Assembly: GCA_029948255.1 (NCBI GenBank)
Contig: JALIZF010001612.1
Location: 372,001-436,000, forward strand
Length of the DNA stretch: 64,000 bases
Direction: 5' to 3'
From: Telmatactis stephensoni
Lineage: Eukaryota; Cnidaria; Anthozoa; Actiniaria; Isophelliidae
The notes under the pieces were generated by a model. The model saw only the letters and a program-made list of their open reading frames with translations, did not search any database and was not told the origin of the DNA. Position numbers and translations under genes: made by a program. Positions 3,743-60,654 of this stretch are shown here, one piece after another; the stretch's first letter is position 1; every line of letters starts with the position of its first letter.

Positions 3743-6700
3743 AACGCTGCACCATTTTAAAGTGGAAAACCCCATTTTAAAGTGGAAAATACAATCAGTC
3801 TGACCTCTGTCTAGGACAGTCCACAAGTTTGACCAATGAGAGAAGGTTTTAAATCAAGGCTTTTAGACCTTGAGGACTGTCCTCGGTGTTATCCAATCAC
3901 AAGTTGATACTCAGAGGACTGTCCACAAGATAGACCTATGAGAGTACATGATCATCAGACCGTGAAATCATAACTCTGATAAGCCGTGGACTGTTCTCTG
4001 TGTTAGCCAATGAAATCACGTTTGTCTGGTTAATACATGTCACCATTAATAGCTATGGATGACAGAACATGTTCCAAACTCCCGGTTATACACTAGCTTA
4101 AAATCCTCAATGTATTTCATTTAATTTATTTGGTTTTTCGAATAATGCAAAGTTAAAGTGTCATTTTGGGTTTTCCATTTTGGCACTCACCAGGAAAATA
4201 CATAAAGAATTACTTTACGATGAAATGAAACGGCCTCAACAAAATGCATTTCTTTCAAAGTGCAAAATGGCCGCAAAAAGCCTAAAAGTGTACTTTGAAA
4301 TATTGTTCAAGCAAGCAAATATATTTTGAGTCCGATATCTAATGAACGGGACTGTCCTGGGTGTTATCCAATCACAGTTTCGTACTCAGAGGACAATTCT
4401 CACGCTAGACCAATGAGAACAAGTTTTCAACAGACCGTGAAATCATACTCTGATAAGCCGTGGACTGTTCTCTGTGTTAGCCAATGAAATTTCGTTTGTC
4501 TGGTTAACACATGTCATCGTTAATAGCTTTTGATGACAACACAATTATTGCATGAGTGCAACCAAAAATGCGGTTCTTCTATCAACTTTTACAAAATCCG
4601 TCGAACTACAATAGAAGTTTGTCACTTTGTATTATTTGCATTGAGTTCCTCACTTGTCTCTCTTCAGCTCTACAGGGTAATCATCAAAAGAAAAGAGTTG
4701 CTGCTTATTAAAAACTTAACCTGGGAACCATCACAACTAAACTTGAATGAAATGCAATTAAACGTTTGGCGTTGCACTGTGATTTTCGTTCAATACATAA
4801 AACTTCATTTCTACGTGTACATTTTCTACGAGAGCTAGGTGTCCTGAATGCAAGTTCTTACATCGAGGACTATCCGCACGTTAGACCAATTAAAAAAGCT
4901 GATCATCCGTTAGCTAAACGTCATCGTCCTCGCACTTCACCCATCTGTCACGTTTCTCTAATCGCAAAGTCAAGATCGAACAGAAAAAATTTATTCCACA
5001 TTGACATAACCTTCATGACCATTACAATTCTTTGAATTTACTTGACGATGCATTTTATTCACTTTAAATACCAGGTCAAAAAATGTAGGTGAGCGAAGTA
5101 TCTGGTGATTGTGTTTTCGCGATTGTTTATACGTGTTCGACGTGATCACTGCCAATTGAGTGTAATCTTGAAATATTAAAAAGTGGCTGTGCAGTATTTT
5201 GAACAACCTCAAAGTTGTCAGTTTGAAAGTTTTGGTCTCTAGAGTTTTAATAATGGTGTGCCGGTCGAGGTCTCGGCCGACTGTCAGCAAGCGTAAATCG
5301 CTCGCACAGTCTTGTTAATGAGCGCCTCAAGAGGTCACGGCGCATTAACTTGACCAAGCCACTACAAGCAAATTTCATCCCCAAAGATCACTTTGCTGTT
5401 CTTGGTATCGCTATGATATTCATACAGTTGCTTTTTACTCACCGTTTCCTACTTTTCGGTTCATTTAACGTCTTGATCCATGGTATTCTAGATCGCGACC
5501 AAATAACAAGCTACGGCATGGCGAACTACGGTAATCGAATATAATATTCTTGGCGCGAGTTTTTACCGCCCACTTGTAAATTTCTGTGTAATACTATACT
5601 CCCAGAGGTAGCATCACGTGTAGTCTCCTTAAACGTTTCCTTGTTCTGCCCCAGTGTTGACACCAAAGAATCATCAGAGGAAAGAATTAATAATGACTAG
5701 AATGTACGCAATACAATATTGAACGGGTTTATTGAAATCACTTAGACTTAGTTATTTGCAAGCTTCACGTATATGACGAGCAACCTAGATATTTTCCCGC
5801 CGCGTTACCAATGTAATCCAATAATTTCAAGATTTTCTACCTGACTGGCCGGCTATGCATTTTTGCTATGACCTCGTGCTTCTTGGCATGTCGACAAAGA
5901 CACGTTCAATATTACACATACTGACTAAAGGTGATCTTGGTGTATTAGAGGCTGTTTATATGGAAGTAAGTTGTTCCTTGAAGCCGGGATAACTCTTTTG
6001 CTTTGTGTAACAAAAGGGTTATTCCGCCTAACAGGGGTAACTCGCCTTCACATAATTGGCTCCCTAGTCATATCGAAACTGATTCATTTGGATAAAGTAT
6101 ATCTTCAGTAGCGATCTACGGCGAAATCTAATTTAGGCCAATTTGTGATTTTTCTGTCAAAGACGCTTACAGATCAAAGGGGTCCAAGGGCGCCAAATGA
6201 CATTGTCAGTTGTCCGACCAAAGTTTAAATAATCAAAAAGGAACATTAAAATCTTCCTCACTATCCGCACAAAGGTCGCATGAAAAATATCCCAGAAGAA
6301 ATTCTGGATAGTTTTTATTCCATAACAAACACCAGGCAGAAATTGTACAACTAGGGATAACACATTCAGAGCATAAATATACACATTCGTCGGGTAATCA
6401 GATTTTACTATTTTGAGATGACTTATCCGTTTTGTTATAATTGCACATTTTGACACACATTAGTAGGCCGAGCAATATTCAAAATATCCAATGAACGAGA
6501 AAATGTTTGGAAGGGAGCAACAGTCAGATGAAGTTTTCAACATATTTACACATGATTGCATTGATACTTTCTGACACGTATCAATTGACCTAAAAGACCA
6601 TTATGCTAAGAAACGTAGACTCAGTTATAATTTCAGATTGCAACATATTACTATGCCGAGCAATATGTTCGGTGTTCAAAATATCCAATGAACGAGGAAA

Positions 6701-6763
6701 TATCAATGAACGTTTAAAATGTTTTGGTGACATTTCTTGAGGTCAAATATGCGGCGCTCTTCG
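3743..6763. repeat. Left long inverted repeat (~3.0 kb) of the 27-kb unit
   Basis: The sequence matches, in reverse complement and in order, 30702 down to 27590. The outer edge starts AACGCTGCACCATTTTAAAG and the inner edge ends near TATGCGGCGCTCTT. Colinearity holds throughout, with small indels and substitutions; I judge divergence at a few percent. No protein family is encoded. Open frames conserved in both arms (for example 4530-4838) are explained by DNA identity alone. Outer target duplications were sought but not found. Confidence 0.85.
3873..4528. repeat. Two ~180-bp direct modules inside the left inverted repeat
   Basis: Modules at about 3873-4054 and 4349-4528 share, in order, GGACTGTCC, GTTATCCAATCACA, ACTCAGAGGAC, TAGACC(A/T)ATGAGA, CAGACCGTGAAATCAT, GATAAGCCGTGGACTG, GTGTTAGCCAATGAAAT and TTTGTCTGGTTAA. 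The same modules appear inverted near 29930-30110 and 30400-30580 in the right arm. Subterminal repeats of this kind often serve as transposase-binding sites; that role is inference. Confidence 0.75.
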
Positions 6764-6993
6764 AACCATAAGCAGCTCTTACTGCGGTTTTCGGTATTGT
6801 ATCTGCGAACTCTGGCTTTCAAATACCAACCGCAAATATGCGATTTTACTTCTGTCAATCAAAAATAAAAATCACTATTAAATACGAACAACTGTTCACA
6901 TCTAAAGATCGTATTTGGTCATTTTGTAGGATTTTAGGAGTTTTTAGTAGTGAGTTTTTGGATGTTTTGTTCTGGTGGGCGGAAGCGAATAAC

Positions 6994-7762
6994 TAGCCTG
7001 CGTGCAGCCGTTTATTTACCCGTAATAAACGTCTGCGAAACAACGCCAGAAATCCTGTTCTCTGTGACACGAAATAAGAAGCGATTTCTTATTGGCTCTC
7101 GCACAGATCAATTCTTACATGAACTCTGATTGGTCGACGGCTCGTTCTAATCTCTTCCGGTTGCGATGTCAACGGTTTAGTTTTCAATATGGCGTCGTTA
7201 TTGTCAAAGTCTTTTCAGCAAGGAGCGTGCTGATCAGTGATAGCTAAGCTATACCTGGAATGCCAAGATTTTGAAGCTTTTCTACTTGGTCCGTCATCAA
7301 CACTTTTAGAGGCGAGTTTACAACCATAACACTTGAGCCTCGTGGTCTCTCAAAGAGAATATCTGCTACGATTGGCAGGCATTGAAAAATTAATGATTTT
7401 CCACACCCGGTGGGTAGATTTACAAAGACATTTCCCTTCTCAATGAACATACAAAGACTTTCTTTTTGATCATCTAGCAAGCTTTCAATTTCGAATTGAG
7501 TTTCAACTGCTTTAAACGCACTTTTCTATCGCTCCTTGCTGAAAGACTTTGACAATAACGACGCCATATTGAAAACTAAACCGTTGACATTGCAACCGGA
7601 AGAGATTATAACGAGCCGTCGACCAATCAGAGTTCATGTAAGAATTGATCTTTGCAAGAGCCAATTAGAAATCGCTTCTTATTTCGTGTCACAGAGAACA
7701 GGATTTCTGGCGTTGTTTCGCAGACGTTTATTACGGGTAAATAAACGGCTGCACGCAGGCTA
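6994..7762 (-). mobile_element. 769-bp transposon with ~234-bp terminal inverted repeats and a RecQ-helicase fragment
   Basis: The left inverted repeat 6994-7227 starts TAGCCTGCGTGCAGCCG. The right repeat 7530-7762 is its near-perfect reverse complement ending in CAGGCTA. The flanking 8-bp sequence CGAATAAC occurs at 6986-6993 and 7763-7770, a clean target duplication. The only coding content is a helicase fragment on the minus strand. An 8-bp duplication occurs in hAT and P superfamilies; the termini do not let me choose. It appears to be a deletion derivative that retains part of a larger protein gene. Confidence 0.85.
7244..7480 (-). pseudogene. RecQ-like DNA helicase fragment (Walker A region)
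   Basis: About 78 codons encode a superfamily-2 helicase segment resembling RecQ. It has VFVNLPTGCGKSLIFQ (motif I, Walker A, G-C-G-K-S) followed by a motif Ia-like stretch with SPLKVLMTDQVEKLQNLGI. RecQ helicases unwind DNA 3' to 5' using ATP and need motifs II to VI, which are absent. The fragment is closed on both sides by the inverted repeats of a small transposon, so it is captured or residual sequence, not a working helicase. The start is not a true start codon context; it is an internal exon fragment. Confidence 0.75.
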
Positions 7763-7770
7763 CGAATAAC

Positions 7771-8851
7771 CAAATTCACCAAATTCAAAAATTCACGAAA
7801 AGCTCAGTTTTTACTCGGCACATTATTCATAGTAAGACCCCCATAGTAACCCCAGTTAACCTCATTCAATGCCAACGTGTTAGCTATTTTAAAATGAAAT
7901 GGCAAGGGAGTACTAAAGGAGAAAATGCATGTTCATTCTGATATATATTTTGTTTTTCGATTTCTATATTTTTCGCACCAAAACGTTAACGTTTATAATA
8001 GTATTTTGTAGTTAGTTATTTTAATAATGGCTCGCAGGGTGCCTCGCATCATGAGGTATGGCTCGCACACCTCGCAGTTTGTATCGACCCATACCTGTCC
8101 AGAACGTTTATTTACTGGTCACTGTTCCTTATTTGGTTGACGCTAGAAAAGTCAACATAATAATTATCGAGAGATGAGAGATTTGATTTGCCTTCAATTC
8201 CCACTGCATTACTTCTGTTTTCCATTCCTTTTTTGAAGGACATTTTGAACTTACATGTCGACTTCAAAGCTGTCAGAGCGCTGATTTTTATCCCTGAGAG
8301 ATATGACGAGCATACACGACGTTTACAATGGAGTTGCCCCGGGGTTATTGATTTCTTAATTGTTCTTGAATTTCATTTATCAGCGAGTAGAATTGACCTA
8401 TACTTTCATTTACAGTTAGCGTGATTTTCATTCGCCCGTTAACGAAAAAAATGACTATTTTGTCCGTACCAGTTGATCAACAACAAAAAACATTAGATAC
8501 GGAGTCTAATACGTAGAAGATATTATAAGGGCGCACGGAGATACGTATTTTATATTCGAGTATTGTGGTCTCTTGGTTCGATTGATATAGCAATTGAACA
8601 TGAGAATATAAAATCCGTATCTCCGCGCGCCCATGTAACGCTCTGTTTATTATATAAACTCAAATGAAATACAAAAATAGCAAAATAACCCAAAATAGCA
8701 AAATTATGCAAAGAGTATCCATGGTTACGTGTTATTTTCACATTTGAAGTAACATGTGAAGATATCACTTTTTCGCCCGAGAGATCACTTGGTATTTCAT
8801 TAAAGTTTATATAGTAATACACATTATTTGGCAATCCATGTCAAGCCCCAT
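7771..8851. other. Non-coding interval downstream of the protease gene
   Basis: No coding signal is seen. It contains one clear hairpin (8529-8632, listed separately). The rest is AT-rich sequence between the small RecQ-bearing transposon and the stop codon of the C48 protease gene, so it may contain the 3' untranslated region of that gene. Confidence 0.5.
8529..8632. repeat. Hairpin-forming inverted repeat (104 bp)
   Basis: GGGCGCACGGAGATACG...TTTTATATTC at 8529-8557 is the near-perfect reverse complement of 8604-8632 (GAATATAAAATCCGTATC then TCCGCGCGCCC). The loop is about 46 bp. It is either a tiny MITE or the remnant ends of one. Confidence 0.75.
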
Positions 8852-11490
8852 TCAGTATTTTCCGTCCATTACTCGCTCTGCAATTATGTAGCGATATTCA
8901 TCGATGTCTTCCTGCAAAGAAAACGGAATATGCAAAATAAAATTTGTCGTTTCTTCTTCTCTCTTCAGTAAAGATAAATATATATTTTTATTATTGTTGT
9001 TACATGGTATAAGATCATACCTTATTAAAATTCATTTCTCCTGAAAGAAGCATAATGCACTCTGCTATCTGTAAAGGGGTAGATAATGTATAATTCCCTT
9101 TTTATTGTGACACAAATATACTCTGGCTGCTCTATAAAATGGAAAAAGGAATGGAAAAATTGGTAGAGAGGAGAACCGCAGGAGATGGGTCTCTGCATGA
9201 TTTTATTTTGAAGGTTTTCTTACCTTGAGAACGTACACACCACAGCTAACTGCATCCTGTTGCAGTGGGTGTTCAATCTTCTCTTCTTTCCACTCTATCT
9301 CCAACTTTTCTCCCACAAGGAACTTTCTGAAAGCCAAAGGACAATGACAGTCATTACGCATTTTAGCCATATGAAAGGGATAATTTGACCCAAACAAACA
9401 AGCAAAGAAACAAACAATATCAGCAACTTCATCAAATCCATACCTTATAATTTGGTAAGGTGTTTTTAACGTTTTTCCAAGGGGATCAACAATCGCAATT
9501 GTACCTCTTACAAGGTCGACAACCTAATGGCATGTGATGGAATTGAAATACATCGTCAGTAGATAGTATTTACTAGTTTAACCTTTTTGGCAAGTCTCCA
9601 CGTACTCCATTAGTTTTGCCAACCTAAGAAATTGTCAGCGTAATGAACCATAAATAAGCACCTTGAGTTTGAGGACCATCCATAATCATCATTGCAAACT
9701 CCAACGGAATGCACTTGAGAGCTTGAGGTAATGAAAATGTTGAAGCGCACGTTACTTACCCCAATACTCCAGTGGTTTTCTATGAACTGGCTTGGAAAAA
9801 TAAGCTTCTCGAACTTCGAAATCTTAGTCTGTCGAAAGAAGGAACAGTGGCACAATTGCTACTCAGTTTGGTTTGATCACCAACGAAGTGTAAGATTTAC
9901 ATGAATTTACCTTTCTGCAGCTCCAGGGTTTCGACTTGAGTATCCGCTGATAGAATTTTGTGTTAGCCGTTACAACTCGTGTCCCCTAGAATGTAACGTT
10001 GTTATTCTCGAGTGCAGTTCAAAATTGCAGCCTCACAGAAAGTTCTCACAGGTACTTACCATTTTATTTGCGGTTCTCTCCAACAGGCACATATATTCAT
10101 CAATTACCTATAACAAGGAAGTAAAGTCAACTATTTTATTGTGAATTATTCAGTTATTGGTAGTTGTTTGCATCTGATATTTATCAATGAGTATTACCTT
10201 TGCCGATCAATAACTAGTTTTTCAGCCCAATTTTAAAAACCATTATTCCAAATGTAGACTGCTTTTTTGATTGCAACATTAGGCCCAGATCAAACGAGAA
10301 CGCAAGGAGGTGCAAGTCAATGCAAGTTTTGTGCCTTCGTTTGATCGCCGAAAAACACACACACGCACACACAAACACAATATTAATTAAGAATGCTTGT
10401 GGCCTACCTCATCGTTAAGATAGCCCATTTTCCAATTTGTATTTTTCATCAGGTCAATCATATTCATCTCATGAGGAATGGGCATCTCCTTCTGTAACGT
10501 TTTTATGTCTTTCCAGCAGACCTGACCAATCTTTGTGTAAGGTGCGGAAAGATCATTCCAAACCGCCTCTACCTGTAGAATACAACGTACATAAGCTTGA
10601 ACACGAACTACAACATAATGTATGAGACCGTAATACAATTACAAGAGAGGATAAATGAGCACAGCGGAAAAGACAACTGATAAATGTTCACTTTCATAAA
10701 CGCATCAAAAGCAGCGGATATATGCCAGTGATCAAAAACAACTTCCATGTACTCAAAACTGGAAACGTGAAATATCAGAGGCTTTGAAACCAAACATAAA
10801 TTAACGAACAAGAACAATCACTACTTTGTCAGGTATGTGCAGTCGAAATATTCGATCAATAAAAATTGTTGTTCTACTCGTACTCCGTTTTTATAGTGAA
10901 ACTGTATGGCCAAATCAGCACCATTAGGTTTTGTTGCAAAGTACACAGCCTAATATAAGTTACTATTATTTACCTTTGAATGTCGTTCAATAACAACAAG
11001 TTTTTTAATGCAGCACTGGAATTCCTGTTCCAGGTTTTCCATGTCAAACGAGAAATTCCCGTGTTTGACAGTGGCTTTTACATCTCGTGCAAAAACCTGG
11101 TGTGGATATACTTCCTCGATTATATTTCTCTTTGGCCATTGGAACTGATCCTCCCCTCCTTTCACCTTCTGCAGAAATCGCACTTCAAGAGTGCCATTGC
11201 TCCCTTCATTTTCTAGTTTTCCCAGGTAAAAGGCAGGAGGCTTCGGCTTTGGCGCTGTATAGCCGACTGCTATGAAACCAGTCTGCCAGGAAATTAATAA
11301 TAAGTTCAAGACAGAGGAATGTGATAAAATCATTATAACAGTTTCGATTGTACTTTCTAATTCATACCTCAACATCTGGAGCTTGTCTTTTTGTTGGTTT
11401 CAAAAGCTTTTCCTTCAAAGAAGAATAGTCGAGTGTAAGCCCAGGCCGGCAGTCCGATGTTAAGTGTCGGGGGGTTATGCTCGTCATATT
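8852..11490 (-). CDS. Ulp1/SENP-type cysteine protease (peptidase family C48), multi-exon
   Basis: Peptidases of this family cleave SUMO or related modifiers from proteins. Reading the minus strand I can place phase-consistent exons at about 11490-11368, 11282-10974, 10751-10692, 10572-10408, 10107-10060, 9985-9911, 9828-9760, 9523-9224, 9068-9021 and 8911-8852, each with AG acceptor and GT donor. The catalytic set is complete: Trp/His in FIENHWSIG (9760-9828 exon), Asp in IAIVDPLGKT, and the Gln/Cys block HPLQQDAVSCGVYVLK (9224-9523 exon). LNDEVIDEYMCLLERT near the domain start matches the family's usual W/YLND.VI segment. The 5' end is uncertain: upstream exons may be those annotated at 16403-20684, with a hAT transposon in the intervening intron. 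It lies inside the 27-kb inverted-repeat unit. Confidence 0.8.
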
Positions 11491-11945
11491 TTTGGGGGTC
11501 AAAATATGGTTAGTCATGTTTGCATATTTCAAGGCTTCAATATTAAGTTTGCAATTTCAGAATTCAAAGTCATTTTTCAAAAAGTAAAGCTGAGAGAGTG
11601 CTTGTTGTTTACTTGAAGTTTTTTTTTGTATCCACGTGATGGGAAACTTTTGTGGATTATGATAATAAAAAATTGAAAGTAAAAAATAAACCGTTTAGAG
11701 CAGAGTTTTCGCGGGAGATGTAGTTTAACCTCTTTGGGATCAAAAATCGTACGGCCATACCCTTTCAAAGGGTCTTGTATCTTTCATAGTATATATTATA
11801 CTTTTTAGAATTTCTGTCGATCATGTCGGTACATTTGCTTCAGATTGTGATTTACAATCAAATGTGAAGTTCTTTTAACTTGAAATGGGGATATGACTTA
11901 CTATTGATTTATGTGTGGTTGGTTGTTCATGCCGAGTACGTTTGC
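11491..11945. other. Non-coding interval between protease exons and the hAT insertion
   Basis: No coding signal was found on either strand. It is either an intron or the upstream region of the C48 protease gene. It ends at the hexamer GTTTGC, the left copy of the probable target duplication of the hAT element. Confidence 0.45.
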
Positions 11946-12147
11946 CAGGGTTCGTACAAGAAAAGGGATGTTCAAATTCAAGGACTTTTCAGCACTTTCA
12001 AGGTCCAATCTTACAAAATATAAGGACTATTTTGAAAAGGTTTTAGTTAAACTCAACTTATTCATTTTCTAATCAACTGTCATATCTACAGTAGGTACAC
12101 TTTCTAAGTGTATTACTCTAACATAAAACTATAGTTCATCGTAAATG

Positions 12148-14765
12148 TCAAATGGCTCTTAACTCGGACGCTTTCTTCTTAATCTCATCATCAACCTGCT
12201 TTATAATCTGAAGTTTCTTGCTTTCAGCTTTAGCCCACAAAGCATTTGCTGCAGAGAGAATTTCCAGCTTTCCCTTTCTTTCTGCTTCAAGAGAACTCTT
12301 CCTCGAATTTTCTTCAAGGCTGGCTTGATCAACACTCAGTCGCTTGCGCTTTGCCCGAAGGGCCTCTAATTCATCTTCCAAACATTTACGCTTCCTGTTC
12401 ACCTCTCCTTCTGCCTTCTCCTTTTGTAGTTCTCTTAGATAACTCTCATAACGAGATCTGGATGCTGCTGCTGACTTTAAAAGCTCTTTATTTACCACAA
12501 CATTTTGGATTCCACCAACTGAGCGAATGTGATCACAGATAACCCTTTGTGACACATAGCCTTTTTCTGAGAGGTTTTCCACTTCTATGCATCGATTAAT
12601 TGAAAACCCTCTCTCCACTGAAGCCTGACCATGTGAAATCAACAATACCAATTTGACCACTTTCCAAATTTTGGCATATTCTTGTTTACCATTGAAGAAA
12701 CTATAGTAAAAGACATCTCAACGCTCTTTGCTGATATCATAGTCTTTGAACTTTGATGTGTTTGATGCTACAACGTCATTAATAAAACTATTGTATTGCC
12801 ACTTGATATTATCACATTCATTCTCTTTAATGCGTTTTAAGTCGACAAGACAACCAAGTAACCTTTGAAGTTGCTTTTTAATGTTACTTGGTGAGGTTAT
12901 CATTCTTCGTGGATCAAGACATGCTGCATGGCGGGTAAAAGGGTATTTGAGAGGCGCTTTCTCTAAAATCTTCTTACATATAGCAACGAGGCAGTTCTTG
13001 CAGCTTAAACGGAACTCCATCTTTTGCAGATCACTTGTTTGTGACTTACGTAAGGCCCTTTCTGTACTAAAACCAATGTCAATCTTACTACGCTCACTTT
13101 GATGTAGTGAGTCGTCATTTACATCAAACTTCGCCATCTTTTCTGCAGTTGTCAAAAGCTGAATTTGTTCCTCCTTGCAATATCGCGATAAAAGACTTTT
13201 TAGTAGGTTGAATACATCTGTAGATAAGAATGGAACCATAGGCTGATCTGTTTGGTAACGCAAAAGGAAAGGTGTGACTTCATTTGCAACTGATAAAGCA
13301 AACTGAAGCTTTGCTTCAATCAACTTATCTCTGCACGCTTCCCTGGTCGTTTGATATGACTTACAATCTGGCTTGGAATTTCTTTCATCAACAGCTTTTA
13401 CAAATTCTTTTAAATTGGGTAGGACTTCTAAGGCTCTCTGTAAAACATTGCTATTTTCCACCCATCGTGTTTTACAAAATTTCAAAGGCATAGATGGAAC
13501 TTCACCCAAAAGCTTCTCTAAGTCATCTCTTCGTGCAGGGGAATCCTTGAAAAGTTTGTAAAAGCTAGTTAAAGTGTCTGCTAGGGCCCAGCTTGTGGTC
13601 TCAATTCCCCTTTTATAGGCACCATGGATGACATGTAGTCCACAGCTTCCTATGTTGATTAGGTGTATGTTATTTTCAAGAGCCATGTTTTCTTCAAATG
13701 CTTTGAAAAATTTCCAGTTCACTGCTGGACCATCCATTGAAACTTGTAGTACTCCTCGTCTTGGAAGAGTATCTGTTAAATTGTTCAAATCTCTTAGAAG
13801 ATCATTAGCTGTGGCATGTCCCATACACTCTGAGCCAAAGTACCTTGTTTCAACATTATCGGTATTCCAAAATCTGACATAGGCATCTAACTGTTTTTTC
13901 TGATTTTTTTGATTTAAGCTTTCATCAAAAAGCAATACATAGCCATCTTCATTTTCTGTTATCCTTTCTGTGAGGCACTGATGGAAGTATGGAGCTAGGC
14001 CATAGTTTGTCATATAAGATGCTTTCTTCTCACCACATTGAAATGCCTTTGCGATAGCACTATCAGGAAACATTCTTTCAAATAGGAGGCCTAAAAAGGA
14101 GTTACACATCATTTAATATCTACATATATACAATCAAAATACAAGCACAAATCACATACTATTATTTTGACAAGAATGGTAGGACCAATGCGATGCAGAC
14201 ATCTTCAAACACCATAAAACCTCTGCTTTTAATGTATCATCCTTGGTAACAAAAGAATCTAAACTTGACTTCGGTTTGCTTTGGCCTGAATTCATCTGAA
14301 CTGTACATGAACTTCCCTGAGTTGTAGAGGTATCTCCAGTTGGATTTGTTGAAGATTTGTTTTTTTGCTGGGCAAAGAAACTGCTTATTGATGTTGCTGT
14401 AAACATAAATGCAGCAAAAATACAAATGACCAACGAAAAAATATACCATTGATTAGGCAAGAATGAATGACAACTAAGGAAACTAGTTTTTGGTTAATTA
14501 TATGAAAATTCATAATTCAATGAGAAGTCTGTATCGAAAATATATCAATATTGAAATGTTTGCAATATTATAGACAATTAACAAAAAACTTACATGCTTC
14601 TAAATTGCCCATGGCTTTAACGTGTGCTGCTGACTTGGAATGGCTTGTTAAAGCAGACTCTCCCATGCTTGAAATACTAAAAGATTTCATGCAGACACGA
14701 CATCGCGCCAAAAAAATATCTTGCGATACCTTAAGCAGCCAAGGGCGCCAACAATCCTTTACCAA
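12148..14765 (-). pseudogene. hAT-family transposase with one in-frame stop
   Basis: The enzyme would cut and paste its element between the CAGGG ends. Three exons are visible. The first (from about 14765) encodes a BED-like zinc finger with CRVC and a downstream H-x6-H (SHSKSAAH). The second (about 14403-14152) has TSISSFFAQQ and ends in SHWSYHSCQNN. The long third exon starts near 14112 with NSFLGLLFERMFPDSAIA. Probable catalytic acids lie in VLLFDESLNQK and VSMDGPAVNW. The C-terminal dimerisation motif LVLLISHGQASVERGFS is the hAT hallmark. A TGA at 12718-12720 interrupts the frame between SKER and DVFYYSFFNG; the frame is otherwise open on both sides to 12148, so one nonsense change, plausibly CGA to TGA, inactivates it. 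Confidence 0.8.
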
Positions 14766-15008
14766 CCACGCATCATTAAATTTACACTTCCCTATTGGTT
14801 TATTCTTATGTAAATGGACACGACCTGTCGAAGCTCAAAGTGACGCCATTTTGTCCCAGCTACTCTCCCCAGGCTATGCACATCATAACCTTACACAGAA
14901 ACCCCAAATTTGTCATCGTTGAAATTATAAGAGTTTGTTTAACTAAATATTTCGCTTTTATTAGGATAATTCAAACAATACAAGCAAACATATCTGAAAA
15001 GAAGATTT
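14766..15008. promoter_or_regulatory. Spacer between transposase and F-box genes
   Basis: A 243-bp non-coding gap inside the hAT element separates the transposase 5' end from the stop of the F-box gene. Both genes read on the minus strand, so it should hold the transposase promoter and the F-box 3' untranslated region. No TATA-like box was assigned. Confidence 0.3.
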
Positions 15009-15734: not shown

Positions 15735-16075
15735 TTTGAATTCTGAGAAATGACAAGCTTTGTATTGGCAATATCTACTACGCATGACTAAAAACTCACG
15801 TGATAATAGAACACAGGTATCCCAACTTAAAATTTCTATATTTCGCGTTTCTGTTCGAGTTTTTTTCGTTCTATATTTCCATAAAAATCATGAGAACAAA
15901 GCTGAATTTCCAAAGAATACCAATGGAAAATTCATAACATTTATCGTAATTTCAAGAGCTGAACATTCAAGTACATTCAAGCACCAACTTTGTTATTCAA
16001 GCACTTTCAAGGCCTTGAATTTTTATTTTTGAATTCAAGCATTTTCAAGGACTTTCAAGGCTTGTACGAACCCTG
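15735..16075. repeat. Right subterminal region of the hAT element
   Basis: This 340-bp stretch upstream of the F-box gene contains several copies of the motif (C)ACTTTCAAGG and CATTCAAG, mirrored at the left end (11970-12010). It probably combines transposase-binding sites with the F-box promoter. Confidence 0.5.
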
Positions 16076-16402
16076 GTTTGCCCTTGGTCCTTGAGGTTTT
16101 CTCACATATCTGCTAGTAAAAACAAACTAATCATTGTTTCGCTTGTCTATGCACTGTTTCCTCACTAGTTAGTATATTAAGTATGTTTAATTTGTATCTA
16201 TAAGTTAGGACAGCTAGTGTATATAATTAAGCCTGATCTTCCTCAATAAACATACACCTTTGATTTTGTTCCGAAATTGTGGCAAGTGTAGATAATCTTC
16301 ATAAGGGGCTATTTTTGGAAGCATGGTATTCGGTTTACGACATCGTCATTCCAGATATTTACCGCGCAACGTACATAGACCTTTCGTTGACACATTTCAT
16401 AC

Positions 16403-19400: not shown

Positions 19401-20684
19401 TGTACCGTTATTTTGATGGGGTGAGAAGCAGACACAAACACGCACACACATCCACAAAATTTCTGATCTTCTGCATCATATTTGCATTCTTTATGTCGCC
19501 TCTTTCCAGGCATTTTTTCATCGGAATTTTACATTTTGAAAGCAATTCCAAACGCATTTATTGCAATTGCGCTTTGTACTCGGAAAAACTAACTACACAC
19601 CTTGCTTTGTTACTGAATGCAAATGCAACCCCTTTTTTAAACCAAGCACGCTACGGACCTGAAAATTGTCAATACAGGCTGTTTGACCCCATCCTCCCAT
19701 CCATGCCCATCCCCCCAAATGACTTATTGCTTCCGCCAACCCTGTCATTTTCACCAGAAGTCAGTTAAGAATACCTGGTAGAGATGGTGGTGTTCTACAC
19801 TGGCGTCCATCACTTCGTTACCCTTCTTCCCTTTTCCCTGTTTGAAAGCAAACAAGTTTATTTTAATACCGGGATTTGAAATAGAAACCGACTCGAAATA
19901 CGGAAATTCACCACACATGGATTTCATAATTGCATAATTTCATTCCATACATCACCTTATTTAGCTGAGCTACAGTTTTTTCTTTGGAGAGAAGTTTACA
20001 AAGGTTTTCATGGATTTCGTCCTCAGTCATGGTCAAGGGTGTGATCCACCTGAAGGTATGCTGGGAAATTTTTCCAGTTGTTGAATTAAATTCAGGCCCT
20101 CTCCGACCGATCTCCCTCACCATTTCAAAATTGCGCCTGCTTAAGGTCGCGATATTCTCAAACCTTCGCAGGTCCTAAAAAAGTGTGCAGTGCATAGTAA
20201 ATAGATGATTCCATTGCAAGTGGTAACGTCAGTCTAAGATTTAATATTTCTGATTATATATCTACATATGCTAAATCAAATTATTAAAGCACAATTCTTT
20301 CTATTGTAAATTGATTTTCAGGCTCGGATCTCTCTCTTATATAGGTACTTCCTTATGCGTTTACTCATCATTTCTAATATTGTTATATATTGATTGCCAC
20401 TATTTGCAATAATATTTAGGCATATGTATACTCACGTTCACGCTTCCATATCGCAGTTGGATGCTCTTTTTCCATTTGGATAGAATTTTACCATCGCTTG
20501 TGGGTTCATTTACTGAGGCATCACCTCCTTGAAGCTCAAAGAGTTTCGCTCTCATGTCCTCGACGGTATCCATGAAGGCTGGGGTAATATAAGGAGTTGG
20601 TTGATGTTTCTTTTCGCATGTTCCCGCAGTGGAACCCGGAGTAGCAGGAGCAATTTTGAGGAACGAATCGAAGTTAGCATACAT
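16403..20684 (-). CDS. Coiled-coil protein of unknown function, multi-exon (possible N-terminal half of the C48 protease)
   Basis: I do not recognise the family. Minus-strand exons, mostly phase 0, are at about 20684-20437 (start MYANFDSFLKIA), 20176-19955 (FENIATLSRRNFEMVREIG), 19839-19774, 19310-19234, 18570-18487, 18252-18169, 17912-17847, 17769-17713, 17411-17325, 16831-16733, 16637-16563 and 16471-16403. The middle exons are charged heptad-like coiled coil (RENERLRRDLLREQE; HQANLRSLKKELEDMRAEH; RIKFLEEEVKSLK). A small exon near 18080-18040 also fits but its phase is unclear. One intron uses a GC donor (AAG then GCAAGT at 18486). The last two exons are similar to each other. The final exon ends in a usable donor (GAG then GTATGA), so it may splice on to the C48 exons. 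Confidence 0.6.
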
Positions 20685-21321
20685 TTTTTCGCCGAATCAA
20701 ACAAGGAGAGAAGCAATTGTAGTGTCAGCAGTATATTCACGAGAGTACCGTCACATTTGTAAGAAAAAAACAGTTGTCGTCAGTTGGAAGTGGTGACTTG
20801 TTATACCTGACCCATAAATACATAACAAAGGCATTACGCAAATCGGATATTTCCTAAACGTTTGAATTTCCATGTAGGCGTTATCGTAAGATAATCATGA
20901 TAAGTCATTTAAAAGTGGTCAAGATGTTTTGTGGTGGGGAGAAATATTCCCGTGGTACAAGAGCAATAAAGGATGGATTGTTTGCACACCTCCACTTCAG
21001 TAAACTGTAGTAACGTCAAAAGAATCATAAAAAATGGCTTCTAATGGAGTTAAACGAGTGGATCAAAAATGCGTTCACAATTAGGTGAATTTTAATGTTT
21101 TTAAATTGGTATTTTGATAATAAAGCAAGGGTATTGCTTTACAGAGGACTTTTAGACTTACCGTCTCGGTCTGTGAATGACCACCCTTGTCATTTGGCCC
21201 ATAGGGCTTTCATGAGGACTGTCCTCTTTAATATCCACTGTTTCAGTGGCAAATCATGTGATTAAAAGCAGGGTTGATTGGTTAATTTTGTGGACTAGTC
21301 TCTTAAACAGCGAATAAACTA
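20685..21321. promoter_or_regulatory. Intergenic region between divergent genes, left part
   Basis: No coding signal. It lies upstream of the coiled-coil gene (minus) and, with 21972-22837, upstream of the DUF7869-type gene (plus), so a divergent promoter is expected here. The stretch at about 21210-21300 contains GGACTGTCC-like and GTGGACTAGTC-like sequence reminiscent of the modules in the long inverted repeats. No core promoter element was identified. Confidence 0.35.
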
Positions 21322-21971
21322 CTCAAGTATGTTAAGGCAAGGAATTTTGCTTCAACAGAAAAATTAACTTAAATAGTTTTAATGATGAGCAAGCATGATC
21401 ATATTTTGTCTTATGGGATATTTCATTGATCTTAACATTTTAAGGTATTTTTTGTGACCATCGACGTATCACGTGACATATGACGTCATAAATTACAATT
21501 TTCAAAATGGGCCAATGGGGAAAAAAGGAGGTGAATTTTTTTTGCTGTTTTAGTATCCTACTAATGACTTCTTCACAAAACTGCCCTCATCGCTGGTCCA
21601 CCTCTCTTGTATGAAGAGATAATATGGAAAACAGGTCACGTGACCTCATACTTTAGCTTATATCTCTTAAACCAAGAGAGATGGACCAGCGATGAGGGCA
21701 GTTTTGTAGAGAACACATTAATAGTGTACTAAAACAGCAAAAAGTGTTTCGCTTCCTCTTTTCCCCATTGGCCCATTTTGAAAATGGTAATTTGTAACAT
21801 CATAGGTCACGTGACACCTCGATAGTCACAAAATAAACCTTAAAATGTTAAGTTCAATGAAATATCCCATAACGCAAAATATGATCATGCTTGCTCATCA
21901 ATAAAGCTAGTTAAGGCAAAAAATAACTTTTTATCGTTTGTATCAAAAGTCCTGGCCTTAACATACTTGAG
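21322..21971. mobile_element. 650-bp foldback MITE with TA target duplication
   Basis: The whole element is close to palindromic. CTCAAGTATGTTAAGGC at 21322 is matched by GCCTTAACATACTTGAG ending at 21971. Further inside, GCATGATCATATTTTG, GATATTTCATTGA, ACGTGAC, GGGCCAATGGGG and CAGCGATGAGGGCAG all recur inverted. TA flanks both ends (21320-21321, 21972-21973). There is no coding capacity. A TA duplication fits a Tc1/mariner-related non-autonomous element. Confidence 0.85.
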
Positions 21972-22837
21972 TATAGCGGTGTCATTTAAGCGGGAAATAT
22001 GAATGTTAGTGCCATTATTAGTCTAGTTGCATTGAGTTCTGGCGCGTACTGTCAACAACATGAAGTTCTGTTTACGACTGTTTGTCTCAGTTTTTCTCAG
22101 TTGGATTGTGTGGTGTGCACTTTTATTTGGAAAAATTGAAATTATGAATCAGATGATACAACCGATGGCCATTTTAGTTAGGAATTCGAAGGTAAACTGA
22201 CTAAACTGCAGAGCTAGTTCTATTAATCGTCTAACATAGTTTTCATGTCAAGTGCTCATGTTTCAATTTAGAAACGCAACGAGAAAGTTATACAACAACC
22301 TCCGCCTGTTTTGCGACTTCAAGGAGGATGTGGCAAAAGCAAGTAAGTACACTGAATAGCAAGTTTTTCTGTACCGGGCCAAAAAACCTATCGTCGTTTG
22401 CTACGCCTGCCACAAATATTACCCGGATCGATAGATGACCCCATGCAAGGCATGTCATCAGGCATGTCAATTTGATGAATTGCCGTCACTTGTCAAGATT
22501 GGTAGACAGCATAGTTTGCCGGCTATGTTATCAGTCTTAGCAATGCGAGCCACAAAGCAAGTGTCATATATTAAAAGCAGGAAGATGGGATGCCCTGAGT
22601 AGTGATGGTGATGTGTGTCCACAACGATTCTTGTCTGATTATATATCAAGAATTTTAGATGCCTGCGTATCACAAAAGATAGATTAAAATGTAAATTCAT
22701 AGAATATTCCGATGCCAGGATAATGGCAAAGATACCTTTAAACTTTGCAAATCTACATTTGTGTTAAAGTTGGAGACTAATTGTTGAGTTATTTTGGGAC
22801 TGTACCATACCACAATGTTCTTTTCTCACAATTTCAG
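21972..22837. other. Upstream region of the DUF7869-type gene, possible 5' exons
   Basis: An open frame starting at an ATG near 22060 encodes a hydrophobic stretch (LFVSVFLSWIVWCALLFG) and ends at a GT donor near 22190. A second potential exon near 22272-22345 has good borders, but the reading phase into the exon at 22838 does not close, so I do not include them in the gene. The rest shows no coding signal. Confidence 0.35.
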
Positions 22838-25800
22838 GGACCTGAATCTTGCAATCGGGATGTCCAAGACAATGCCATAATCCGACAGCCCCTGAGAACA
22901 CTATCGAGTAATATCCCGCGAAAAATACCAAATAAAGGTGCCAGTAAAAAAGGCACCAAGTATACAAGTGGTACACATTTAAACTCTATTCTTACGAAAA
23001 ATTCACAATGCTGCATGAAAGAATGCCTTACGGCGATTTTAAAAAGTGAGGAAATCGAAATCTCCTTGAAGTTCTTTTGGGAGAAGTCCGAAGAGGAACA
23101 GCGGAGTTTTATTCTAGACTATCTCTTCCTAAACCAACTACAAAGGGCTGATGGCAAGTACCAATATAAATACAACATCAAAGGAAAAGAAGTGTGTCAA
23201 GAAGCGTTGAAGCGGTGTTATGGAATAAGTAATGGCAGGTGAGGCCAAATCTAGCCCAAAGTAAATTCAAGTCATAATTTTTATGCCATATTCCACAAGT
23301 GCATTCTCTTTGTAAAACATTGACAATATTTCCTGTATTTCCTAATCTGATGATTGTAGTTTAACTTCGGTTTTTACCTCCTTGATTTTAGGTTTTTCAA
23401 TCTTAAAAAAGACTTAGAAAGTAAGGAAAGAACGTGCCCCATAAGTTTCAGAGTTGGAAGGAAGATAAAATCTGCTCGGTATCTTGCTTCAAAGATGTGG
23501 TTTGAGGGGTACATCCATTCCATGGCTGACAGCATGCCAAATGAAACCAAGAAGCATCTGCCATCGTGTGTGACCAAAAAAGAGGTGTACGGACACTATC
23601 AACAGGCTTTTGAGGCAGGAGACATTTTGTGCAACAAGCCCTTAAGCTACACACAATTTGTAGATAGAATGTGGAAGATGAACTTCTCCCATGTTATAAT
23701 TCCGGAGGTAACTACTTCATTCTATTATTCATATAGCTGGTTACTGTTTTTGTATTGTTGTTGTACGTGCGCGTAGATCGAATTACATTTGTAATATCTT
23801 TCCCTGATGAATGGTCTGTAACCCGAAAGCTCGGATTAAATATCTGAAAAAAAGCGAAGATGAGACGTCTATGTTATAAATCAAATGATTAAATGTGTTT
23901 ACTTGTTTCTGTACTTTTTTAAATAAAATGGAACACCTAAAGAAGACATTTGGATTCTCCCGCAGGTTCAAACATTCACGAAGTGTGGGGTGTGTACACT
24001 ACTTAAAGAGCACACCTTCAAAGTCAGAGGCCAACAAAGGCGTCTTCACTGGTTGAAGAACAAAGAAATACATCTGAAACAACAGTCGTGAGTGAAAAAA
24101 TAATTTAAAATGAAATAATCAGTACTTACAAAAAAATTGCTTGTTCATTTTATGTTTGACAAAAACAGGTGTGAGAGGCAAAAATACTACAAGCACCAAA
24201 CAAAGGCAAAGAAACATCCAAAACGATATTTATCGATAATAATTGATGGGATGGATCAGGCAAAAACGAACCTACCCTATTTCTATATGCCATCTCAGGT
24301 GAGACAAGCCACCGGGTAGGAGATGATTGAACTGGCCGAGCATTGCGTATTGGATATTTTTTTATTCTTACCAACGCAATCGCATTATTTTTTATGTAGC
24401 AGTATTTGGGTTTGCTTCAGCATGCAAAGGTTGCCAAGAGTGTGACTGAGAAGAACTTTGTCGCAAAAAAAAACTTGACAAAGTTTTATTCCACACACTA
24501 TAAGTTTTCCCCAGCACAGCCCCGCTCAATTTCCGGTTAGGCAATAACTCGATTTTAAACAATCAAAACTCTGGATACATTTCTTCCACTGACAAATACT
24601 ATTGATATTCAACAGATTGAGGGAGAGTATTCAAAGTTCTTGAAAACCCACGTGACTGGTGTATTGTCACATGGACAAAAACGTTATTGGTGTTTTCTTG
24701 ATCTTATAAGATGGAAACAAGACTCAAATACTACCCTCAACATCATGTTCATCGTTTTAAAAATCATAGCCAAAAAGGTAACTGAGTAAACAAACCTTGT
24801 AATTGAAAAAACATGGAGCGTACATGACTTAGAAATTCTGTTCGTAATAGGAAGGAAGCTTGCCACCTGTCCTCTATTGGCAGATGGATAACTGTTGGCG
24901 GGACTGCAAAAACATTTTTATTTTTGGATTTTGCGCACTCCTCGTTATGTCTGGAGTTTTCAAAAAGGTGAGAGTTTCGACTTACTGCAAGTGAGTATCA
25001 CAAATGATATACAAAACCCTGCTTATGACGAGTGAAAACGTGGAAGCTACCCTCTAATCTCAAACTAAAGTGACAAAGAACTTTTTTCATTTAAAAACAG
25101 GTTAGACTGTCTTATCTCATGGTGGGCCACACACATGAAGATGTAGATCAAGTAAGTAATTGCGGAAGCTAGCTCTATTAGCTGTAGTGTGTACGAGTGC
25201 TCCTTTCAGTTAATCCCCCAGCATTCAAAACCAATATAGTTTTGTCCTGTAGTTTTTATCATGCTTTGCTGTTTTCACAGATGTTCAGTCGCATTTCTGC
25301 CTCGCTGAAAAAGAAAAACGCAACAACACTGGACACCTTACGAGAAATCATCCATTGTAGTTACACTCCGGCACCATCAACTGTCTACGTAGAAAATATA
25401 TACGACATCAAGTCCTTCATACGACCATACACCTGCACTCTAAAAAACCACAGTACACCACACGCATTCCGATTTAAGAAGAACGAGAAGGGGGAAGTGG
25501 AAATGGCACACCGTCTCTGGGCCGATGACAAGAAATGGAGAGGAACGGAGACGGTTATGTAGGTCATGCCGGAGGGAAAACCATCAGTTCTTCGTCAAGA
25601 AAATAGAAAAAATCCGTCACCGGAAGAAATGATAAACTCCCTTAAACATCTCTCATCTAGGCTAACACGAGAAGATTATACCTGGTGGGAGACGTTTATA
25701 GCAAAGGAGGAGAAAACAAGAACACACATGGAAGACATCAGCGATGAAGAACTGATGGAATTGGGAAAGGCGTTCCACCTTGACAATATGCACTTCACCG

Positions 25801-26118
25801 AGCCCCCCGAAGAGGAAGATGATAGTGAAGACGAAGAAACTCTTAGGGCTGAGGGAGAAATCCAAAAGCTGATTGATAAAGATATGAATCGTCCTCCGGT
25901 ATGCCAATACTGAGTTTCTCAAACTCCCCATTGTCTATCGGGTGTAAATTGTAAATTACGTTGTCTCTCTCTACTGTTGTTATTTACAGGTGAAACTAGT
26001 TCGTAGGCCAGAAAAAAGACGGGCTGTAGCCGAAAATGGAAATGAAGCGCCCCCTCCGGCAAAGAAACAAAAACGCCAGAAGAAACGTGCACAAAAGAAA
26101 TTGAGTTCCAGGGGCTAG
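22838..26118 (+). pseudogene. DUF7869-type protein, candidate transposase of the 27-kb unit; one in-frame stop
   Basis: Exons with consistent splice sites are at 22838-23238, 23392-23707, 23966-24087, 24169-24298, 24616-24777, 24851-24967, 25101-25151, 25281-25898 and 25990-26118; a short exon may lie near 24400. The protein resembles the large invertebrate families named DUF7869 (recalled, not searched). It has a Cys-rich segment (KCGVCTLLKEH), then acidic motifs in order: IIIDGMDQAKTNLPYF, LYWQMDNCWRDCKN and VGHTHEDVDQMFSRI. The ordered acids on predicted strand ends look like an RNase-H-fold nuclease. An acidic stretch (EEEDDSEDEE) and a basic tail (KKQKRQKKRAQKK, probable nuclear signal) close it. 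A TAG at 25560-25562 interrupts exon 8 while the same frame continues, so the copy is probably inactive. Confidence 0.7.
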
Positions 26119-27589
26119 ATTCACCTGGCAATTACATTTTTGATTTTTTCGTCCTTCGTAATCGTGCATGAATCTATTTTTCAACTTACATGAATGTTTT
26201 CTTCCTTTTAAGCTGTCTTCGAGTTTGTTTTTGGTTATTACCCAATCCCCCTCCCTATCAACAATGTAATGGTCCATCCCTAAGTCAATTCCTGTTCACT
26301 CTCCGTCGAATTTTGCTCACGGGTGAACTACCATGCAATGTTTGCACTATGCGGAAATCTGATTACTTTGGGTTTTAGTGAAGTACGTGAAACGGGAAAT
26401 TTTGGCAAACCTTGTCAAACTACAAAGGTGCCGTCGTCTTAATTTTGTCCAGGGTGTGGAATTTTTTTGTCGGCTTTATTGACGTCTGTCAACTTAAATT
26501 CATAACAATTTGCATACTTGTATTACATTCAACATGACTTGGAAAAAGCTCACGATTTTTTTGGACGTGGAAATTAATCTTCAAATTGCCAAAGATATAG
26601 AAATTGCTCTCCTTCGCTCATTGGGTTTTGAAGGACAATAAAAAAATCCATAACATAAATTCAAAATAAATTCAAAACATTTTGAATTTCCTTCAACACT
26701 GACAGGTTAGCAAAGTTAAATACGTTTAACTTCGACACGAAATAACCAACGTTCGGCAGTCTGGAATTTTTTCACATTTCTATTCCAAATCCAAAACACA
26801 TTCATTGGAAAATGTTCTTTCTGTATTTAGAATCCTTAAGCGCTTCCAGGCAGCCAAAAATTTGGAACTTGATGTTTTTACCAACCCTGTTAGCCATCCA
26901 AGCGCGTGACACTTGGAAACATTTCAATGACACTGCCGTGTTACTGTCGAACACAAATTACTAGACGTCTGGTATTCCGATATTTTTTTTATTTTTCGCT
27001 TTGAAACCAACCATCTTTCATTGAAAATGGTCTATCAATATTTTGAATCCTCAAGCGCTTCTAGACAGTCAAAAAATTCGAACATATTCCGCCGCCAACC
27101 TTGTACAAAGGGTACAAAGCAGTCCAAGCGTGTCACTTGGAAAATTTATTAGAAAAAGATTTCCGTTAAAGGTTTCACCAAAAAAGTTTAACAGACATTC
27201 AGTAATTCGAGTACCACGTCCGGCAGTGTTATTTTAATAAAAGTTTCTCTGTCACGCGCTTGGAGGGCCTCGTACTCTGTGTACAGGGTTGGTAGAAAGG
27301 ACAACGTTCGAATGTTTTGACTGTCTAGTAGCACTTGAGGATTCTAAATAGAGGTAGAACATTTTCGAATAAATATTTTTTTGGATTTCGAAGGGAATTG
27401 CGAAAAGATATTGGACTGCCGGGCGTTTAGTTATTCTAAGACAGTGTCTGGCTGATCTCGAAATGTAGTAACTTTTGAAAATTTCATCTTAGTGCAAAAC
27501 GAAAAATTTCGTGGTAGTGCAAACAATCAGTCTAGTGAAACTTTAGAACAAATGATATTTAATATTTATAAAATGTCATGAAATGTTCA
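26119..27589. repeat. Non-coding right core with three degenerate ~200-bp repeats
   Basis: After the gene's stop there is no coding sequence. Between about 26700 and 27440 a unit recurs three times, two direct and one inverted. Shared landmarks are GAATCCT(T/C)AAGCGCTTC, CAG(C/T)CAAAAA, CCAACC(C/T)TGT, and AAGCG(C/T)GT(G/C)AC at about 26830-26920 and 27045-27140. They appear in reverse as CACGCGCTTGGA, CAGGGTTGGTA and GACTGTCTAG at about 27250-27335. These lie just inside the right inverted repeat. Confidence 0.6.
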
Positions 27590-30500
27590 AGAGCGCCGCA
27601 TATTTCACCTCAAGAAATGTCACTAAATGACTGTATCTGTCAACAATACATGTTACAGAGAAAGCGTGTACTTGTTAATATAAACGTTCATTGATATTTC
27701 CTCGGTCATTGGATATTTTGAACACCAAACATATTGGAATTGTTTTTATTGCTCTCTTTCTTTACAAGTATTAATTTTGCAATAATACACATATTGCTCG
27801 GCCTAGTAATATGTTGCAATCTGAAATTTTACTGAGTCTATGATTATTAGCATAATGGTCTTTTAGGTCAATTGATACATGTCAGAAAGTATCAATGCAA
27901 CACGTGTAAATATGTTGAAAACTTCATCTGACTGTTGCTCCCTTCCAAACATTTTCTCATTCATTGGATATTTTGAATATTGCTCGGCCTACTAATGTGT
28001 GTCGAAATGTGCAATTATAACAAAACGGATAAGTCATCTCAAAATAATAAAATCTGATTACCCGACGAATGTGTATATTTATGCTCTGAATGTGTTATCC
28101 CTAGTTGTACAATTTCTGCCTGGTGTTTGTTATGGAATGAAACTATCCAGAATTTCTTCTGGGATATTTTTCATGCGACCTTTGTGCGGATAGTGAGGAA
28201 GATTTTAATGTTCCTTTTTGATTATTTGAACTTTGGTCGGATAACTGACAATGTCATTTGGCGCCCTTGGACCCCTTTGATCTTTAAGCGTCTTTGACAG
28301 AAAAATCACAAATTGGCCTAAATTAGATTTCGCCGTAGACCGCTACTGAAGATACACTTTATCCAAATGAATCAGTTTCGACATGACTAGGGAGCCAATT
28401 ATGTGAAGGCAAGTTGCCCCTGTTAGGCGGAATAACCCTTTTGTTACACAAAGCAAAAGAGTTATCCCGGCTTCAAGGAACAACTTACTTCCATATAAAC
28501 AGCCTCTAATACACCAAGATCACCTTTAGTATGTGTAATATTGAACGTGTCTTTGACATGCCAAGAAGCACGAGGTCATAGCAAAAATGCATAGCCGGCC
28601 AGTCAGGTAGAAAATCTTGAAATTATTGGATTACATTGGTAATGCGGCGGGAAAATATCTAGGTTGCTCGTCATATACATGAAGCTTGCAAATAACTAAG
28701 TCTAAGTGATTTCAATAAACCCGTTCAATATTGTATTGCGTATATTCTAGTCATTATTAATTCTTTCCTCTGATGATTCTTTGGTGTCAACACTGGGGCA
28801 GAACAAGGAAACTTTTAAGGAGAACTGCCTAATAACAAGACTACACGTGATGCTACCTCTGGGAGTATAGTATTACAAAGAAATTTACAAGTGGCGGTAA
28901 AAACTCGCGCCAAGAATATTATATTCGATTACCGTAGTTCGCCATGCCGTAGCTTGTTATTTGGTCGCGATCTAGAATACCATGGATCAAGACGTTAAAT
29001 GAACCGAAAAGTAGGAAACAGTGAGTAAAAAGCAACTGTATGAATATCATAGCGATACCAACAACAGCAAAGTGATCTTTGGGGATGAAATTTGCTTGTA
29101 GTGGCTTGGTCAAGTTAATGCGCCGTGACCTCTTGAGGCGCTCATTAACAAGACTGTGCGAGCGATTTACGCTTGCTGACAGTCGGCCGAGACCTCGACC
29201 AGCACACCATTATTAAAACTCTAGAGACCAAAACTTTCAAACTGACAACTTTGAGGTTGTTCAGCCACTTTTTAATATTTCAAGATTACACTCAATTGGC
29301 AGTGATCACGTCGAACATGTATAAACAATCGCGAAAACACAATCACCAGATACTTCGCTCACCTACATTTTTTGACCTGGTATTTAAAGTGAATAAAGTG
29401 CATCGTCAAGTAAATTCAAAGAATTGTAATGGTCATGAAGGTTATGTCAATGTGGAATAAATTTTTTCTGTTCGATCTTGACTTTGCGATTAGAGAAACG
29501 TGACAGATGGGTGAAGTGCGAGGACGATGACGTTTAGCTAACGGATGATCAGCTTTTCTAATTGGTCTAACGTGCGGATAGTCCTCGATGTAAGAACTTG
29601 CATTCAGGACATCTAGCTCTCGTAGAAAATGTACACGTAGAAATGAAGTTTTATGTATTGAACGAAAATCACAGTGCAACGCCAAACGTTTAATTGCATT
29701 TCATTCAAGTTTAGTTGTGATGGTTCCAAGGTTAAGTTTTTAATAAGCAGCAACTCTTTTGCTTTTGATGAGCTGTAGAGCTGAAGAGAGACAAGTGAGG
29801 AACTCAACGCAAATAATACAAAGTGACAAACTTCTATTGTAGTTCGACGGATTTTGTAAAAGTTGATAGAAGAACCACGTTTTTGGTTGCACTCATGCAA
29901 TAATTGTGTTGTCATCAAAAGCTATTAACGGATGACATGTGTTAACCAGATAAACGAAATTTCATTGGCTAACACAGAGAACAGTTCACGGCTTATCAGA
30001 GTATGATTTCACAGTCTGTTGAAAACTTGTTCTCATTGGTCTAGCGTGAGAATTGTCCTCTGAGTACGAAACTGTGATTGGATAACACCCAGGACAGTCC
30101 CGTTCATTAGATATCGGACTCAAAATATATTTGCTTGCTTGAACAATATTTCAAAGTACACTTTTAGGCTTTTTGCGGCCATTTTGCACTTTGAAAGAAA
30201 TGCATTTTGTTGAGGCCGTTTCATTTCATTGTAAAGTAATTCTTTATGTATTTTCCTGGTGAGTGCCAAAATGGAAAACCCAAAATGACACTTTAACTTT
30301 GCATTATTCGAAAAACCAAATAAACTAAATGAAATACATTGAGGATTTTAAGCTAGTGTATAACCGGGAGTTTGGAACATGTTCTGTCATCCATAGCTAT
30401 TAATGTTGACATGTGTTAACCAGACAAACGTGATTCCATTGACACAGAGAACAGTCCACGGCTTATCAGAGTTATGATTTCACGGTCTGATGATCATGTA

Positions 30501-30702
30501 CTCTCATAGGTCTATCTTGTGGACAGTCCTCTGAGTATCAACTTGTGATTGGATTACACCGAGGACAGTCCTCAAGGTCTAAAAGCCTTGATTTAAAACC
30601 TTCTCTCATAGGTCAAACTCATGGACTGTCCTAGACAGAGGTCAGACTGATTGTATTTTCCACTTTAAAATGGGGTTTTCCACTTTAAAATGGTGCAGCG
30701 TT
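27590..30702. repeat. Right long inverted repeat (~3.1 kb) of the 27-kb unit
   Basis: Reverse complement of 3743-6763, ending outward with GGTGCAGCGTT (30692-30702). It is about 90 bp longer than the left arm because of indels, the largest near 27620-27700. Open frames seen here (28919-29113, 29416-29685, 29613-29918) mirror those in the left arm and carry no recognisable domain. Confidence 0.85.
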
Positions 30703-60651: not shown

Positions 60652-60654
60652 TAA

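Follow-up and report, generated by a model that had tools for sequence, protein, structure and literature searches.

A 27-kb unit with 3-kb inverted ends and a putative DUF7869 transposase in Telmatactis stephensoni is a probable giant DNA transposon

The window is the whole 64,000-nucleotide stretch of contig JALIZF010001612.1 that was analyzed, and all positions refer to it. Comparison of the window with itself by blastn revealed two arms, 3743–6668 and 30702–27789, that match in minus orientation with 96.67% identity over 2,945 columns. A second block, 6661–6716 with 27736–27681, is 96.4% identical. The arms of about 3 kb, reverse complements of each other, that an earlier note had described are thereby recovered, and both start at the same outer base. 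Combining self-blastn and alignment, the left arm extends over 3743–6720 (plus strand, outer end 3743) and the right arm over 27680–30702 (minus strand, outer end 30702). Their common start is AACGCTGCACC, the longer shared start being AACGCTGCACCATTTTAAAGTGGAAAACCCC, and the 81 outermost bases are identical on the left and on the right. In the compared part, the arms differ by 47 substitutions over 2,870 aligned bases (1.64%, 35 of the 47 being transitions) and by 12 gap events. Because of these differences, they are not a mirror image introduced by the assembly, but real and diverged repeats. The unit thus delimited terminates in inverted repeats whose outer ends coincide precisely, as is required of class II elements with inverted ends. 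The left arm matched nothing in the rest of the window beyond one stretch of 20 bp (E = 0.046), and four of its six frames compared with Pfam at 0.01 gave no match. For a cut-and-paste element, 3 kb is an unusual length for arms in which no coding content is recognized.

The outer parts of the arms are repetitive. Tandem Repeats Finder detected 1.9 copies of a terminal 20-bp unit, CCATTTTAAAGTGGAAAACC, at 3752–3789 (plus strand), with a mirror array at 30656–30693. It is followed by a left subterminal array (3814–4542, plus strand) where the motif GGACTGTCC occurs, on either strand, at 3814, 3874, 3916, and 4349; this array also contains a 191-bp internal repeat (3874–4064 and 4349–4538, 86% identical). 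The mirror array of the right arm (29910–30631, minus strand) displays the motif at 30092, 30521, 30563, and 30623. GGACTGTCC is a near-palindrome found at ten sites in the window, counting both strands: four plus four in the outer ~620 bp of the arms, one in the remaining core, and one elsewhere. The subterminal repeats pointed out previously are supported by this array, with eight of the ten sites in the outer arm ends. In 5,000 first-order Markov sequences, the mean number of sites was 0.0046 and the maximum one, to be compared with the four observed in the outer 800 bp of the left arm, although the independent sites are fewer because two of these four belong to the 191-bp duplication and those of the right arm are mirror copies. 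Such subterminal motif arrays are typical of transposase-binding regions.

A target duplication was sought with 25 × 25 border offsets, as exact repeats of 5–12 bp or repeats of 8–12 bp with one mismatch. None of at least 5 bp was present within 12 bases of either end of the unit; the scan starts at 5 bp, and superfamilies with duplications of 0–4 bp are still compatible with this result. The flanks at the exact borders are TGAC and TAAC, the best short match being three bases out of four, for which the chance expectation is about 1 in 20. An apparent TGCA duplication was ruled out because this sequence is palindromic and still part of the arm, the identity of the arms continuing five bases beyond. 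Joining the 300-base flanks and translating them in six frames did not yield any telling open frame. A search of virus contigs with the 25-base terminal pattern gave no confirmed relative, although a miss in such a collection says little. Three other elements of the window, at 11946–16075, 6994–7762, and 54813–63776, have exact duplications of 6, 8, and 6 bp, respectively. For the unit itself, the absence may mean that its superfamily makes a very short duplication, that the duplication was lost, or that the unit is not an insertion.

In the last case, the arms could be a local inverted duplication, that is a palindrome with a long spacer, flanking host genes or genes derived from transposable elements, and nothing would move as a unit. 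The lack of a duplication of at least 5 bp speaks for this explanation, as does a left arm devoid of Pfam matches in the four frames compared and of other window matches beyond 20 bp. However, the same start base in both arms, the terminal 20-bp unit with its repetition, and the motif array within the outer ~620 bp are not what a random duplication breakpoint is expected to give, and the genes described below are of transposon type. A local duplication is considered unlikely.

Two elements have landed between the arms. The larger one, of 4,130 bp (11946–16075, minus strand), has CAGGGTTCGTACAAG ends that match perfectly (15/15) and a 6-bp duplication, GTTTGC. It contains two transposase-like ORFs (14112–12718 and 12717–12148) with one TGA between them, a BED-like finger at 14834–14568 (zf-BED, E = 0.014, below the cut-off), and an open F-box frame of 292 residues at 15887–15009 (F-box-like in Pfam, E = 4.3e-9). 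Judging from its motifs and ends, this element is probably hAT-like; no hAT family was matched in Pfam. Among hAT families, hAT6 is described with 6-bp duplications (PMC12730594). The F-box frame beside the transposase-like ORFs is a possible cargo gene, and F-box domains have been reported with Zisupton elements (PMC12062965). The transposase-like ORFs and the F-box frame were ruled out as genes of the unit itself because they belong to this nested insertion, which has ends and a 6-bp duplication of its own. The smaller element, of 769 bp (6994–7762, minus strand), has 221-bp inverted ends starting with TAGCCTGCGTGCAG and an 8-bp duplication, CGAATAAC. It carries a DEAD-box helicase fragment (7244–7525, Pfam E = 2e-9), which was likewise rejected as a native part, as it sits within this element with its own ends and duplication. 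When both elements are removed with one copy of each duplication, 22,047 bp remain. Self-blastn also disclosed a 654-bp imperfect palindrome, hairpin- or MITE-like and 81% self-complementary (21320–21973), and degenerate hairpin or foldback repeats adjoining the right arm (26748–27435), neither with an assigned strand. The view that the remaining features are later insertions holds for the two elements with inverted ends and duplications, whereas the two hairpin regions come without such proof.

The putative transposase gene, encoding a DUF7869 protein, was modeled on the plus strand in eight exons (22838–23238, 23392–23707, 23966–24087, 24169–24298, 24616–24777, 24851–24967, 25101–25151, and 25281–25559), the span of the modeled part being 22838–25559. 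The spliced protein matches Pfam DUF7869 (PF25273) with E = 2.3e-73, covering positions 5–191 of the 192 of the profile, with a score of 246.3 bits for a cut-off of 26. The region 25188–25562, a single exon, scored 76.2 bits alone. The only further Pfam match of the spliced protein is one sub-threshold zinc finger. Candidate acidic motifs are IIIDGMDQ, QMDNC, and HEDVDQ, separated by 83 and 39 or 41 residues, a spacing that we take to be transposase-like. By sequence, these motifs fit an RNase-H-like DDD enzyme; comparison of the protein with PDB sequences gave no match up to E = 10. An in-frame TAG (25560–25562) is positioned 3′ of the DUF7869 domain. Beyond it, the frame (25560–26118, plus strand, to 25898 and then from 25990) encodes an acidic stretch followed by a basic tail. 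No relative was confirmed in virus contigs with the last exon or the spliced protein, nor in prokaryote genome contigs with the spliced protein, but these misses say little because the collections comprise virus and prokaryote sequence.

The second gene, a C48 (Ulp1-type) protease gene, was modeled on the minus strand in nine exons (11282–10974, 10572–10408, 10107–10060, 9985–9911, 9828–9760, 9523–9444, 9326–9224, 9068–9021, and 8911–8855) that form one open frame followed by a TGA; its modeled part spans 8855–11282. The spliced protein matches Pfam Peptidase_C48 with E = 1.3e-16. It aligns with yeast Ulp1 (1euv) with E = 3.1e-9, including a histidine, an aspartate, a glutamine, and a cysteine, which are presumably the catalytic residues. 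With both the catalytic domain and the His-Asp-Gln-Cys set that define Peptidase C48, the predicted protease is Ulp1/SENP-like. No relative of the spliced protein was confirmed in virus contigs, a miss that again says little.

The third gene, also on the minus strand, encodes a coiled-coil protein and was modeled in nine exons from an ATG at 20684 (20684–20436, 20174–19956, 19837–19775, 19310–19233, 18570–18487, 18252–18169, 17912–17847, 17769–17713, and 17411–17325), the modeled part spanning 17325–20684. One GC donor is used, after 18487. No Pfam family was found above the cut-off, the best being DUF7801 with 19.2 bits for a required 33.2. One heptad register has a hydrophobic fraction of 0.54 at positions a and d, against 0.14–0.36 in the other six.

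The splice models rely on GT-AG borders, apart from the GC donor; the borders were picked by eye and several are below the consensus cut-off. The C48 and coiled-coil models are open throughout, and the DUF7869 model has one stop, after the conserved domain. When exon chains were shifted at random, none of the 2,000 made per gene remained open, a weak control because the real borders were picked by eye for an open frame and splice consensus. All three genes lie wholly between the arms. The splice models bear out the claim of three native gene blocks on divergent strands, C48 and coiled-coil on the minus strand and DUF7869 on the plus strand.

Further coding content was searched for with a Pfam scan of the core (6717–11945 and 16076–27680) in six frames, with E up to 0.01 and stops treated as residues. 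Apart from DUF7869 and the DEAD fragment, the scan returned just two matches, both sub-threshold (K319L-like_PKD and DUF4181). It returned no polymerase, packaging ATPase, capsid, or integrase, but it is a weak scan that missed the C48 gene too; because that gene, with its short exons, was missed, other split genes could escape as well. No match was found in the whole window with Rfam at gathering thresholds. The statement of the earlier note that the unit lacks the DNA polymerase, ATPase, and capsid genes agrees with this weak scan, and its term "self-synthesising-like" finds no support. Polintons, or Mavericks, are elements of comparable length with inverted ends and a cysteine protease, and it was considered on these likenesses, namely the size, the long inverted ends, and the cysteine protease, that the unit might be a decayed Polinton/Maverick or another virus-like self-synthesising element. 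Polymerase, packaging ATPase, capsid, and integrase were all missing from the core scan, which is weak for intron-split genes, and the protease, modeled in nine exons, matches C48 and SENP/Ulp1. Such an origin appears highly improbable.

The gene content also bears on another explanation, in which the arms would be those of a foldback or other non-autonomous element that depends on an enzyme from another locus, with the three genes as captured cargo and a transposase other than the DUF7869 protein. Long arms with internal subterminal repeats resemble, to our understanding, foldback-type ends. Pfam annotates DUF7869 as a domain of unknown function, and a literature search for DUF7869 or PF25273 retrieved no paper with the name or the accession, which leaves room for this explanation. 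Against it, once the two proven insertions are subtracted, the content recognized by the weak scan is limited to these genes, the arms, and the hairpins, and Ulp1 domains are known to accompany DDE transposases (PMC2836005). Captured cargo is regarded as quite improbable.

Both Ginger1 and Mutator transposons include elements with Ulp1 domains, for which a role in transposition was suggested (PMC2836005). Ginger1 elements are DNA transposons of animals, including Hydra, with a DDE enzyme, introns, and in part an Ulp1 protease domain (PMC2836005). The unit is similar in having an Ulp1-type protease and introns. Ginger1 elements are about 2.6–7 kb long, with inverted ends of 40–270 bp and 4-bp duplications CCGG or CCGT, and their Ulp1 is a C-terminal domain of the Gypsy-type integrase (PMC2836005). 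In contrast, the unit measures 22–27 kb, has 3-kb arms and a DUF7869 enzyme, and its protease is modeled as a separate gene. The flanks TGAC and TAAC are not CCGG or CCGT duplications. No rve-type match indicative of a Gypsy-type integrase core was found in the core by a scan that is weak for split genes; the same Pfam library did give an rve-type match at 61790–63295, outside the unit. Because of its size, the unit was also compared with the KDZ group (Zisupton, Kyakuja, and Dileera), DNA transposons that carry accessory domains and are found in animals and fungi. Zisupton duplicates 8 bp of its target (PMC12730594), whereas there is no 8-bp duplication at the ends of the unit. KDZ families were absent from the matches of the spliced DUF7869 protein with E up to 0.5 and from those of the core with E up to 0.01. 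Like the Mutator-like elements with Ulp1, the unit carries an Ulp1 domain. Some Mutator-like elements have long inverted ends, and they produce 9–11 bp duplications. Such duplications are absent from the unit, and neither the core scan nor the spliced proteins showed a Mutator transposase domain.

The anatomy of this well-bounded unit fits a giant autonomous DNA transposon of a family yet to be placed, with a putative transposase. The locus probably holds one copy of such an element, about 22 kb long and with the DUF7869 protein as transposase, that was interrupted and now measures 27 kb because other elements landed inside. Transposition of the cut-and-paste type, with DUF7869 supplying the enzyme, suits the data better than the "self-synthesising-like" interpretation. 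The giant-transposon interpretation given earlier is retained, with the long arms, the subterminal repeats, the three-gene core, and the nested insertions in its favor, stripped of that term.

A mechanism can be proposed from sequence features. The DUF7869 protein, as an RNase-H-like nuclease with a D-D-D triad, would bind the GGACTGTCC array near both ends. It would then pair the ends, cut at AACGC..GCGTT, and join the element to another target. The coiled-coil protein could be an accessory for end pairing or multimerization. The Ulp1/C48 protease may strip SUMO either from the transposase itself or from chromatin and repair proteins of the host. The fold and the role of the DUF7869 protein, the joint action of the three genes, and the movement of the unit are all what we infer in this scheme.

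If the unit moves, DUF7869 gains a role, as a transposase, and a giant multi-gene element is added to the eukaryotic transposons above 20 kb, of which few kinds exist to our knowledge. It would also provide a natural case of a separate SUMO-protease-like gene traveling with a transposase, making the proposed link between SUMO removal and transposition testable. The literature on transposons that are giant or have long ends, and on Ulp1/C48, Zisupton, Mavericks, cnidarians, and scleractinians, revealed no such element in the titles and abstract openings among the matches listed; preprints and Repbase lie outside that search and may catalog the family. It is proposed, tentatively and with somewhat more doubt than confidence, that the unit represents a hitherto undescribed superfamily of giant eukaryotic DNA transposons, which combines a DDD transposase of the DUF7869 type with a separate gene for an Ulp1-type SUMO protease, a coiled-coil partner, 3-kb inverted ends, and a very short target duplication or none.

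Other elements are found in the window outside the unit. An 8,964-bp element (54813–63776) has 474-bp inverted ends (99.8% identical, TATGG..CCATA) and a 6-bp duplication, CTGCTC. It sits in a LINE-like element, and the site without the insertion is seen in a near-identical copy of the latter (49671–52110). The 8,964-bp element codes for a protein of the integrase type (rva_4, E = 9e-78), and in its ends and duplication it agrees with the IS3EU elements described in rust fungi (PMC12730594). Inside it, plus-strand ORFs at 56522–59660 include a tandem repeat in multiples of 33 bp (57463–58002). These ORFs look HECT-ligase-like by eye; two of them gave no match against Pfam at 0.001. Two copies of a reverse-transcriptase element, 49671–51892 and 52591–54812, are in direct order and 99.87% identical over 2,222 bp. 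Finally, a transposase ORF at 44992–46134 matches DDE_Tnp_4 with E = 5e-40 and is presumably of Harbinger type.
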